In this document: positions 689 to 4,116 of the stretch, piece by piece | Numbering within the stretch: position 1 is the first letter of the stretch | Layout of the letters: every line of letters starts with the position of its first letter | Assembly (NCBI GenBank): GCA_002839205.1 | Contig: PGXP01000082.1 | Coordinates: forward strand, 1 to 7,079 | DNA length: 7,079 nt | Source: Spirochaetae bacterium HGW-Spirochaetae-9 | GTDB lineage: Bacteria; Spirochaetota; Spirochaetia; Treponematales; Rectinemataceae | Reading direction: 5' to 3' | Notes under the pieces: generated by a model | What the model saw: the letters and a program-made list of their open reading frames with translations, nothing else | Database searches by the model: none | Told to the model about the DNA's origin: nothing | Made by a program: the position numbers and the translations under genes

Positions 689-715
689 TTGACAAAAATT
701 GAATATTTGTATAAT
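689..715 (+). promoter_or_regulatory. Promoter for rpmF-acpP (sigma-70 type, short spacer)
   Basis: A perfect -35 TTGACA (689-694) and a perfect -10 TATAAT (710-715) are separated by an A/T-rich 15-base spacer. Both hexamers match consensus, but the spacer is two bases under the optimum. Transcription would start near 722, giving a leader of about 39 bases before the rpmF ATG. Its strength fits a ribosomal protein and an abundant carrier protein. It probably also feeds rnc downstream. Confidence 0.7.
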
Positions 716-760: not shown

Positions 761-946
761 ATGGCTGTACCGAAATTTAGAACTTCAAAGGCGAGAACGC
801 GCCGACGCCGTTCCGTGAACATGAAGCTGACCGCTCCTACGCTTGTACAGTGCGGTAACTGCGGAAACCCTGTTCTCCTCCACCAAGTCTGCCCGAAGTG
901 CGGTTTTTATAGGGGTAAGCAGATCATTGCCCCGGAATCCAAATAA
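761..946 (+). CDS. rpmF: 50S ribosomal protein L32
   Basis: L32 is a small protein of the large ribosomal subunit. The 61-aa product begins MAVPKFRTSKARTRRRR, the family's basic N-terminus with the conserved MAVPK start. It carries a complete zinc ribbon with Cys31-x2-Cys34 and Cys44-x2-Cys47, so this is the zinc-binding (C+) form rather than a cysteine-free paralog. A GAGGT ribosome-binding site (750-754) lies 6 bases before ATG 761. acpP follows after 11 bases. The rpmF-acpP pairing is widespread in bacteria and links ribosome and lipid synthesis, often with fatty-acid genes such as plsX nearby; those are absent here. Confidence 0.97.
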   Translation: MAVPKFRTSKARTRRRRSVNMKLTAPTLVQCGNCGNPVLLHQVCPKCGFYRGKQIIAPESK

Positions 947-957
947 GGAGCACATCG

Positions 958-1194
958 ATGGACGAGCTTTTTGAGAAGGTAAAGAAGATAATCGCCGACA
1001 AGCTGGAAGTTGAAGAAGGAAAGATAACTCTTGATGCCAGCTTCCGCCAGGATCTTGGCGCCGATTCCCTCGACACTTATGAGCTTGTGTATGGAATCGA
1101 AGAAGAACTTGGAATCCAGATTCCGGATGAGAAAGCGAACGAATTTGAAACTGTTCGCGATGCATACGAATTCATCAAGACCCAGGTCAAATAA
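958..1194 (+). CDS. acpP: Acyl carrier protein
   Basis: ACP carries growing acyl chains in type II fatty-acid synthesis on a 4'-phosphopantetheine arm. The protein is 78 aa, small and acidic, with the canonical attachment motif GADSL; Ser37 is the modified residue. The helix pattern is that of a primary ACP: DELFEKVKKIIADKL at the start, then DSFR-like and ELGIQIPDE segments. The ribosome-binding site AAGGAG (945-950) overlaps the rpmF stop codon and lies 7 bases before ATG 958, so translation of the two genes is closely linked. coaD, 313 bases upstream, makes the precursor of CoA, the donor of the ACP arm. No holo-ACP synthase gene is in the window. Confidence 0.97.
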   Translation: MDELFEKVKKIIADKLEVEEGKITLDASFRQDLGADSLDTYELVYGIEEELGIQIPDEKANEFETVRDAYEFIKTQVK

Positions 1195-1205
1195 AGACCG
1201 TTCAG

Positions 1206-1218
1206 CCCCGGCGCGGGG
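1206..1218 (+). promoter_or_regulatory. Short GC hairpin upstream of rnc, competing with the longer stem
   Basis: CCCCG (1206-1210) can pair with CGGGG (1214-1218) across a GCG loop, giving a 5-bp all-GC hairpin 12 bases after the acpP stop. It uses bases 1210-1218, which also form part of the 5' arm of the larger inverted repeat 1210-1223/1257-1270. The two structures are therefore mutually exclusive. The local hairpin would form first during transcription. Seen directly in sequence; the switching role is inference. Confidence 0.45.
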
Positions 1219-1281
1219 AGAACCAAATCGGTGGTCACCCAAATGACTGCGGAGGAGTTCTCCCCGCGCCAGCTTTTTCTT
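1210..1281 (+). promoter_or_regulatory. Large stem-loop over the rnc start; candidate RNase III autoregulatory site or attenuator
   Basis: GGCGCGGGGAGAAC (1210-1223) is a perfect 14-bp inverted repeat of GTTCTCCCCGCGCC (1257-1270), with 11 of 14 pairs G-C and a 33-base loop. The loop contains both possible rnc start codons (GTG 1231, ATG 1243). The 5' arm contains GGGGAG (1215-1220), the likely ribosome-binding site for the GTG. After a 3-base gap, TTTTTCTT (1274-1281) follows the stem, as in an intrinsic terminator, although the loop is larger than usual for one. Known from other bacteria: RNase III cuts a stem-loop in its own mRNA leader to limit its synthesis. Here the stem could serve as such a target, as a translation block, or as a partial terminator separating high rpmF-acpP from low rnc expression. 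All three roles are inference. Confidence 0.55.
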
Positions 1282-2013
1282 GAGGACTTCCAGAAAAAGC
1301 TTCAGCTTTCATTCAATAATCTCTCCCTCCTTGATTCTTCACTCACCCATCGTTCTTTCCTCAATGAATCACATTGTGGCGATGGCCTTACTCATAATGA
1401 ACGATTGGAGTTTCTCGGTGATGCCGTTCTGGGGCAGGTTGTAGCTTCTCTTCTCTTTGCCAGGCTGGACGGAAGACCAGAAGGCGAACTGGCGAGGATC
1501 AAGAGCATAGTCGTTTCGGAACAGTCGCTGGCTCCTATCGCTCTGGCCATAGGTATTCCCGAAGCCCTCCAGTTGGGACGAGGCGAGGAGCACTCTGGAG
1601 GCAGGTCCAAGAAAGCCTTGCTCGCCGATGCGGTAGAAGCCCTTATCGGGGCTGTCTTCCTGGACCAGGGCTACGATGCTGCGCAGCTCTTTGTGTCAAG
1701 ATTGGTAGAGCCTGTCATCGAGGAAGCTGTCGCTGGCAAGAGCAAGGACTACAAGACTGTAATCCAGGAATACGCACAAAAACACTACAAGGAGCTTCCG
1801 CTCTATACCCTGGACAGGGCTGAGGGTCCCGAACACGACAGGATATTCTGGGTATCGTGTAAGCTTGGAAGAAAAAGCTATGGTCCTTTTTCCGGAAAGA
1901 CAAAGAAAGAAGCGGAACAGATGGCTGCCGAGAATATCTATTTTTCCCTGAAAAAAGGTTCAGACATCGTCGCCAGCCGCCTCGATGCCATCACAAGCCT
2001 TTCCCCTCAGTAA
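1231..2013 (+). CDS. rnc: Ribonuclease III
   Basis: RNase III cleaves double-stranded RNA in rRNA precursors, structured mRNAs and sense-antisense duplexes. From GTG 1231 the protein is 260 aa. The nuclease domain (about residues 20-150) has the signature NERLEFLGDAVL with metal-binding Glu60 and Asp64, and the second pair Asp133 and Glu136 in ADAVEALIGAVF. The spacing matches the catalytic set of known enzymes. The C-terminal dsRNA-binding domain (about 170-245) starts at DYKTVIQEYAQ and ends with the KTKKEAEQMAAENIY helix. Start choice is uncertain: GTG 1231 has GGGGAG 10 bases upstream, while ATG 1243 (256 aa) has only a weak GGTGG. Both lie in the loop of the large stem. The gene is 36 bases after acpP, probably in the same transcript. 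Its last 54 bases overlap cca on the other strand. Confidence 0.96.
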   Translation: MVTQMTAEEFSPRQLFLEDFQKKLQLSFNNLSLLDSSLTHRSFLNESHCGDGLTHNERLEFLGDAVLGQVVASLLFARLDGRPEGELARIKSIVVSEQSLAPIALAIGIPEALQLGRGEEHSGGRSKKALLADAVEALIGAVFLDQGYDAAQLFVSRLVEPVIEEAVAGKSKDYKTVIQEYAQKHYKELPLYTLDRAEGPEHDRIFWVSCKLGRKSYGPFSGKTKKEAEQMAAENIYFSLKKGSDIVASRLDAITSLSPQ

Positions 2014-3468: not shown

Positions 3469-4116
3469 ATGGAAGCGCTCGTGATAACGGGAGGCCAATG
3501 CCCCCCGCCTGAATTCCTCAAACGGCTCGCGGCCCATGCCACCCTCGTCATAGCAGCAGATTCGGGGCTGGATGCAGCTCGGGGAGCAGGGATCCAGCCC
3601 GATGTCGTCGTGGGTGATTTCGACAGCCTGAACGACCTGGCTGGCCTCGATTCCATACCTCAGGAAAATATTCTGACCTTCCCGAGGGAAAAAGACGATA
3701 CCGATACGGAAATCGCCATACAGACGGCATGGAATAAGGGTTTCGATTACGTCGTTCTGGCAGGCGGCGGCGGAGGAAGGCTTGATCACCTGCTGGCAGT
3801 CTGGGCTCTCTTTGCCCGCGAACGTACCCCGCAGGAATGGCATACGGGCAGCGACTCTGTCTATCTGCTTGAAAAAGGAAAATCGGCTGCATTCAAGGTT
3901 TCGCCAGGCGTGATGGTTTCCGTTTTTCCCGCCGGCTGCGAGGGGAGCAAGGGTATGTCCTCCTCGGGACTTAAATGGCCGCTCAATAGCCTGACATGGG
4001 ATGAAGGCCGCTACGGCATAAGCAACGAAAGCACCGGGGGCGAAGTGCATATTTCAGCAGGATCCAGCAGCCTCCTCATCATTCTTCCTCTTGGATGCGA
4101 ACGCCTTTCCGAGTAG
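3469..4116 (+). CDS. thiN: Thiamine pyrophosphokinase
   Basis: This enzyme makes thiamine diphosphate from thiamine by pyrophosphoryl transfer from ATP, in the cytosol. The protein is 215 aa from ATG 3469, the usual family length. The catalytic domain shows AADSGLDAARGAGIQPD followed by VVGDFDSL, then KDDTDTEIAI and GGGGGRLDHLLA, all hallmark family motifs. The C-terminal thiamine-binding domain contains GLKWPL and GISNES. The frame is open to an ATG at 3406, but homology begins at MEALVITGG, and GGGAGG (3452-3457) lies 11 bases before ATG 3469, so that start is preferred. It is divergent from cca (108-base gap). Its last 63 bases overlap the HIT gene on the other strand. No thiamine-biosynthesis gene or TPP riboswitch is seen nearby, which suggests it acts on salvaged thiamine; that is inference. 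Confidence 0.94.
   Translation: MEALVITGGQCPPPEFLKRLAAHATLVIAADSGLDAARGAGIQPDVVVGDFDSLNDLAGLDSIPQENILTFPREKDDTDTEIAIQTAWNKGFDYVVLAGGGGGRLDHLLAVWALFARERTPQEWHTGSDSVYLLEKGKSAAFKVSPGVMVSVFPAGCEGSKGMSSSGLKWPLNSLTWDEGRYGISNESTGGEVHISAGSSSLLIILPLGCERLSE

Follow-up and report, generated by a model that had tools for sequence, protein, structure and literature searches.

The start codon of rnc, the gene for RNase III, lies inside a hairpin at the acpP-rnc boundary of the window, by which we mean the whole stretch of DNA analyzed here, an entire metagenome contig of 7079 bp. The hairpin is far more stable than its composition predicts, and both the likely Shine-Dalgarno sequence and the start codon of rnc are buried within it. 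We tentatively propose, as a quite possible reading, that the hairpin restrains initiation on rnc and offers a plausible target through which RNase III could exert negative feedback on its own synthesis.

Gene context and anatomy of the hairpin

The contig has a G+C content of 55% and carries, in order, coaD, rpmF, acpP, rnc, a convergent cca, a thiamin pyrophosphokinase gene, a convergent HIT gene, a 125-aa ORF, gltX, and a DUF1846 gene. In the protein database, the nearest named relatives of its RNase III belong to the Rectinemataceae (Spirochaetota). A Pfam search of the 125-aa ORF between HIT and gltX returned no match. In each convergent pair the 3' ends of the ORFs overlap: rnc runs into cca at 1960-2013, and thiamin pyrophosphokinase into HIT at 4054-4116. 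Near the left end of the contig, AGGGGACATTTCTACTGTGC occurs as a direct repeat at 45-64 and 71-90, 26 nt apart, and is possibly the edge of a mobile element. The features relevant to the hairpin are as follows.

689..715, + strand: promoter-like TTGACA (689-694), 15-nt spacer, and TATAAT (710-715), read off the sequence 5' of rpmF
761..946, + strand: rpmF, ribosomal protein L32 (Pfam PF01783, 86.9 bits)
958..1194, + strand: acpP, acyl carrier protein (Pfam PF00550)
1210..1223, + strand: 5' arm of the outer stem (14 bp), GGCGCGGGGAGAAC, lying between acpP and rnc
1224..1227 (5' side) and 1254-1256 (3' side), + strand: 4/3 internal loop of the predicted fold
1228..1253, + strand: inner stem-loop, from the predicted fold and pairing probabilities
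1230..1236, + strand: candidate Shine-Dalgarno sequence GGTGGTC, the strongest anti-SD duplex, in the inner stem
1243..2013, + strand: rnc, RNase III (Pfam Ribonuclease_3 and dsrm); the ORF is also open from GTG1231
1257..1270, + strand: 3' arm of the outer stem, GTTCTCCCCGCGCC, within rnc codons 5-10 (E-F-S-P-R-Q)
1271..1301, + strand: second predicted hairpin (-11.2 kcal/mol), rnc codons 10-20, abutting the main hairpin

On sequence grounds, the motifs at 689-715 are likely to form a strong promoter for rpmF-acpP-rnc, and we infer that these three genes make up one operon. A promoter scan of 600-2100 with the spacer set to 16-18 nt returned no promoter-like sites; the spacer at 689-715 is 15 nt. 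The acpP stop codon TAA occupies 1192-1194, and the outer stem begins 15 nt later.

A sequence-only reading had described a perfect 14-bp stem spanning the initiation region of rnc itself, and this description held. The two arms form 14 of 14 Watson-Crick pairs and are separated by 33 nt, both candidate starts (GTG1231 and ATG1243) fall in that interval, GGGGAG sits at 1215-1220 in the 5' arm, and the region from 1195 to 1300 folds at -53.2 kcal/mol (z -5.57), with none of 200 dinucleotide shuffles equally stable. The 33-nt interval also pairs with itself: positions 1228-1237 join 1244-1253 in nine pairs around one mismatch (1228-1229 with 1252-1253, G1230 opposite G1251, and 1231-1237 with 1244-1250), closing a 6-nt loop at 1238-1243, and the supposed loop is therefore not open. 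The whole element, 1210-1270, comprises 61 nt and 23 pairs with a predicted energy of -41.9 kcal/mol. An Rfam search found no family above the gathering threshold; up to E 1 there was one match, on the other strand, at 22.5 bits against a threshold of 100.

The working start of rnc is most likely ATG1243, since 29 of the 30 nearest relatives (P0002-P0031, compared by eye) place a Met 8 residues before the Arg of an S-P-R motif. The one exception is P0007, in which another Arg fits that spacing by chance. GTG1231 is disfavored as the working start because of where the relatives begin and because its pairing with the 16S tail is weaker: GGGGAG upstream of it gives an anti-SD duplex of -8.1 kcal/mol, compared with -11.9 kcal/mol for GGTGGTC upstream of ATG1243. 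The latter value is the strongest of 11 starts tested, the next best elsewhere being -10.5 kcal/mol, in calculations that used what we take to be the 16S tail sequence. GGTGGTC is thus the likely Shine-Dalgarno sequence of rnc, whereas GGGGAG, to which the burial of the ribosome-binding site had been ascribed, is probably not a working site. The burial itself stands, at a different place. In the predicted fold both the Shine-Dalgarno sequence and the start codon are base-paired except for G1230 and A1243; the probability of being unpaired is at most 0.01 at 1231-1236, 0.21 at U1244, and 0.00 at G1245.

The predicted cost of opening the start varies with the footprint assumed for the ribosome. 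For -35 to +19 it is 41.7 kcal/mol for rnc and 12.1-26.5 kcal/mol for the other nine genes of the contig, and among 64 other rnc starts, which were assigned automatically, the median is 14.55 kcal/mol and none is as high as the window. For -25 to +19 the cost is 27.3 kcal/mol, a value reached by 3 of the 64, and for -20 to +19 it is 24.0 kcal/mol, reached by 1 of the 64. With the shortest footprint, -18 to +15, it falls to 17.1 kcal/mol, a figure equaled or exceeded by the HIT gene of the contig (18.4 kcal/mol) and by 9 of the 64 other rnc starts. The cost is thus exceptional only if a ribosome has to open the outer stem, as it probably does when the 33-nt loop is closed.

These same data fit a simpler account in which the hairpin is a static translational throttle that makes initiation on rnc less frequent than on acpP and rpmF, and RNase III is not a sensor. 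Acyl carrier protein and L32 are abundant and RNase III is scarce, so a step-down between their genes is needed, and a static throttle would supply it with no extra factor. A weak Shine-Dalgarno sequence would be a cheaper way to the same end, however, and here the best sequence of the 11 starts is the one that is hidden. A Shine-Dalgarno sequence that is the strongest yet buried resembles a switch rather than plain weak translation. It also seems unlikely that a 23-pair duplex in the mRNA of RNase III would escape the enzyme. We regard a purely static throttle as possible but somewhat unlikely.

Chance pairing and the evidence from close relatives

The site was chosen for its pairing, and all of the chance figures given here depend on that selection. 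When the contig was shuffled with its dinucleotides preserved, 7 of 2000 shuffles contained a perfect 14-bp inverted repeat with arms no more than 100 nt apart. Among 1400 80-nt windows taken from both strands, the site has both the lowest energy and the lowest z. Its z is -6.6 on the + strand and -4.2 on the - strand; an RNA element acting in this transcript would be expected to show such a bias toward the sense strand. Judged by z (about -4.5), the next most structured part of the contig is 351-450 on the + strand, inside coaD.

The contributions of the two arms were separated by recoding and shuffling. With the leader fixed and rnc codons 2-20 recoded synonymously with weighting by codon usage, 8 of 2000 sequences were as stable as the observed one and 21 of 2000 kept all 14 pairs. 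Just one of the 576 codon combinations for E-F-S-P-R yields the perfect stem, a probability of 0.006 under the codon usage of the contig, or 0.013 when G-U pairs are allowed. When the leader was shuffled and the rnc codons were kept, none of 2000 sequences reached the observed stability. Perfect stems around the start are also rare elsewhere: among 719 crude gene starts in other loci, one had at least 14 pairs and two had at least 12. The 14-bp case looks to belong to a spurious ORF, and the 12-bp case is a mis-assigned rnc start in locus L053.

The protein sequences of relatives bear on the same question. The Arg encoded in the 3' arm does not vary across 51 aligned proteins, and 26 of the 30 nearest relatives have a Pro directly before it; the protein sequence thus constrains part of the 3' arm. 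The 5' arm can be followed in P0007 (80% identical), whose predicted frame continues open upstream across the junction, reading S-N-K-D-L-V-L-Q-A-R-G-E-P-P-R-R-L-F. In the window the +1 frame at the junction reads S-N-K-D-R-S-A-P-A-R-G-E-P, in which A-R-G-E-P is the 5' arm. ARGEP lies at an equal distance from the acpP stop in the two sequences and the four codons preceding it differ. The shared ARGEP indicates that the 5' arm exists in a second species and argues against an assembly artifact of the arm. A mobile-repeat or artifact origin of the pairing is disfavored by this independent 5'-arm reading in P0007 and by the identity of the 3' arm as conserved rnc coding sequence.

In P0007 the predicted protein runs from the 5' arm directly into PPRRLF, without the loop and the ATG; the missing interior could be either a real loss or an error in which the hairpin was skipped. 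In P0117, 11 codons separate the apparent end of acpP from the Arg. With no interior in P0007 and only 11 codons in P0117, the hairpin is not universal in the family. Protein searches for relatives with an N-terminal extension into the 5' arm returned the query itself only.

The earlier expectation that such pairing would seldom arise by chance agrees with these results, and we consider a chance origin unlikely. A coincidental match between a GC-rich intergenic stretch and codons kept for protein reasons would be in keeping with the conserved Arg and mostly conserved Pro, with the G+C content of the contig, and with the interior missing from P0007; moreover, shuffled contigs do occasionally hold such a repeat somewhere, and the site was presumably picked from many contigs. 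It would leave to coincidence the z of the site, a choice of rnc codons that suits the stem, a nested second stem that buries the Shine-Dalgarno sequence and the ATG, and a location at one of very few functional sites.

Hairpins at other acpP-rnc junctions

We examined whether the hairpin might instead be a transcript-boundary element, either an attenuator (an intrinsic terminator) or a 3'-end stabilizer of the acpP mRNA that overlaps the rnc start by accident. Of 80 rnc loci, 59 had an assignable start and 17 of these had an acpP motif directly upstream. A GC-rich hairpin was present at the acpP-rnc junction in 14 of the 17 (L006, L011, L015, L021, L022, L027, L039, L042, L045, L056, L060, L065, L067, and L073), and the remaining three (L013, L017, and L058) had no gap or a gap of 6 nt. 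Junction hairpins scoring at least 20 were found in 11 of the 17 acpP-rnc junctions, with scores worked out by hand, and in 9 of 136 junctions, 30-150 nt long, between co-directional genes. The stretches searched were not quite the same in the two sets, and the sets may overlap, since some of the 17 could be among the 136. Seven of the 14 hairpins come from records titled Oscillospiraceae and two more from genera that we take to belong to that family, so the 14 are not independent. These junctions suggest that a step-down from acpP to rnc is a common need.

Most of the junction hairpins look like ordinary terminators upstream of the start. The tail score is at least 2.9 in 4 of the 17 junctions, with stems chosen automatically so that a stem may run into the U-run. 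In Leptospira interrogans (L096:1318-1440), an 11-bp hairpin is followed by the U-rich TTCTTTTTCC just before the annotated rnc start, with a tail score of 3.7.

The window shares with these junctions a GC-rich stem followed by AGCTTTTTCTT, and a transcript-boundary role would gain from their recurrence, from the excess of high-scoring hairpins over other junctions, and from the U-rich tail in Leptospira. In addition, the second hairpin, at 1272-1300, ranks first among the short-loop terminator-like sites close to the start, with a tail score of 2.01. The main hairpin is unlike the others, however, in that it encloses the start and has a tail score of 0.93, compared with 2.5-4.2 in six junctions with hand-placed stem ends. 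An intrinsic terminator has a short loop and an immediate U-tract, whereas here the loop is 33 nt, beyond terminator norms, and the U-run begins 3 nt after the stem. A terminator scan listed no site at the hairpin. The tail score disfavors the intrinsic terminator reading, and with the recurrence elsewhere weakened by the shared ancestry of the Oscillospiraceae loci, we judge a transcript-boundary element of either kind to be quite unlikely.

Possible feedback by RNase III and known counterparts

Under the feedback reading that we favor, a cis-acting hairpin at the acpP-rnc boundary would close the rnc start inside the 23-pair structure, and translation of rnc would be low. A ribosome that terminates 15 nt before a stem should not melt it, given the size of ribosome footprints, so ribosomes ending acpP would halt short of the stem and leave the hairpin closed. 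RNase III would in this way be kept scarce even though its gene shares an mRNA with the genes of usually abundant proteins. The hairpin, with its 14 pairs, 4/3 internal loop, and 9 pairs, would also be a plausible substrate for the enzyme. When plentiful, RNase III could bind the hairpin or cut both of its strands within the rnc frame; cutting would destroy the rnc message and spare acpP, and the outcome would be negative feedback at the initiation region.

The sign of the response could depend on the strand that RNase III cuts. Cleavage confined to the 5' arm might free the Shine-Dalgarno sequence and the start and so turn rnc on, with a double cut, or binding without cutting, turning it off. 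If true, a single hairpin would act as a self-reading RNase III switch at the initiation region, with its outcome set by the strand cut; we think this version very doubtful.

The 14-bp outer stem had been thought short for RNase III. The outer stem is indeed 14 bp, but the full hairpin adds 9 pairs past the internal loop, and the worry is weaker for it. The 23 pairs, interrupted by the 4/3 internal loop and one mismatch, provide the stable duplex of about two helical turns expected of an RNase III autoregulatory element. The element also lies within the mRNA of the RNase III gene itself, as the ORF starting inside the hairpin matches both Ribonuclease_3 and dsrm. R1.1, the canonical RNase III test substrate, likewise has an internal loop between two stems. 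It is described as a 60-nt RNA (PMC3839596), close in size to the 61-nt hairpin of the window.

The E. coli rnc mRNA has its hairpin close to the 5' end, within the 5' UTR, and cleavage there is reported to destabilize the transcript (PMC8708148, PMC3386247). The window resembles E. coli rncO in that the hairpin is in the RNase III gene's own mRNA, and in E. coli negative feedback results. The rncO hairpin belongs to the 5' UTR and lies entirely before the start codon, whereas that of the window contains the start codon and the Shine-Dalgarno sequence and lies inside an apparent operon, a departure from the upstream-leader design that the sequence-only reading had pointed out correctly. In Staphylococcus aureus, RNase III is described as cutting its mRNA at U+296 in the coding region, in a hairpin with internal irregularities, and feedback on the enzyme's own mRNA as preserved while the site varies between species (PMC3386247). 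As in S. aureus, the element of the window includes coding sequence and is irregular inside; it spans -33 to +28 of the start, whereas in S. aureus the enzyme cuts far inside the coding region. The Streptomyces coelicolor absB/rnc transcript is polycistronic and is reported to have two RNase III sites, the first upstream of rnc and the second within the rnc cistron (PMC10126417). The transcript of the window would likewise be polycistronic, but its one hairpin over the start differs from the two separate stem-loops of S. coelicolor.

Cleavage near internal loops is reported in the same review: in the rpsO-pnp intergenic hairpin the E. coli enzyme cuts the stem just below an internal loop, and the S. 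coelicolor enzyme cuts at a 4/4 internal loop (PMC10126417). Like rpsO-pnp, the hairpin of the window has an internal loop directly above a stem. E. coli adhE and lambda cIII are reported to have an occluded ribosome-binding site that is relieved by RNase III (PMC5371410). They share with the window a ribosome-binding site held in structure, and the action of RNase III is known in those genes and proposed here. Both are activated by RNase III and neither encodes it, whereas the gene in the window is rnc.

RNase III feedback on its own mRNA thus occurs in at least three distant bacteria, at a different site in each. If feedback operates in the window, the hairpin would plausibly be a fresh layout of known RNase III autoregulation, differing in placement from those of E. 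coli, S. aureus, and S. coelicolor. A hairpin that is itself the initiation region would be a convergent solution and a simpler mechanism without a decay step, and it would account for the presence of a scarce nuclease in one operon with two proteins that are usually very abundant. An element this short would also be easy to study with a laboratory reporter.

Our searches for the same layout covered sequence collections and the literature. The best locus in a genome-contig search for rnc was 44% identical, and none was titled as a spirochete among 80 of the 145 matching loci. No match exceeded 48% identity in 61 genomes (G001 and relatives). Two scans of viral contigs gave, in one, 7 loci in all at no more than 39% identity and, in the other, none, and a plasmid collection gave 65 matching records, at least 2 of them from Leptospira. 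A start-enclosing rnc hairpin was not found in titles and abstract openings among the matches listed for RNase III autoregulation, nor among those listed for start-codon or ribosome-binding-site hairpins with RNase III and for Rectinema rnc or acpP. Both acpP and rnc are absent from the main text of a Borrelia 3'-end study.

For folding at the rnc start, 96 loci were reduced to 94 matching rnc, 69 with an automatically assigned start (some of them wrong), and finally 65 plus the window, after removal of the mis-assigned L012 and L031 and of L081 and L085, duplicates of L025. Only the window (z -6.28) and L053 (z -6.46) fell below -5. Despite its lower z, the L053 hairpin is upstream of the true rnc start, and with this locus as the only rival a start-enclosing rnc hairpin is not general. 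The L053 hairpin itself (L053:1900-2000, a Clostridiales MAG) folds at -50 kcal/mol; it is located ahead of the start, between rnc and a plsX-like gene, in an E. coli-like leader layout.
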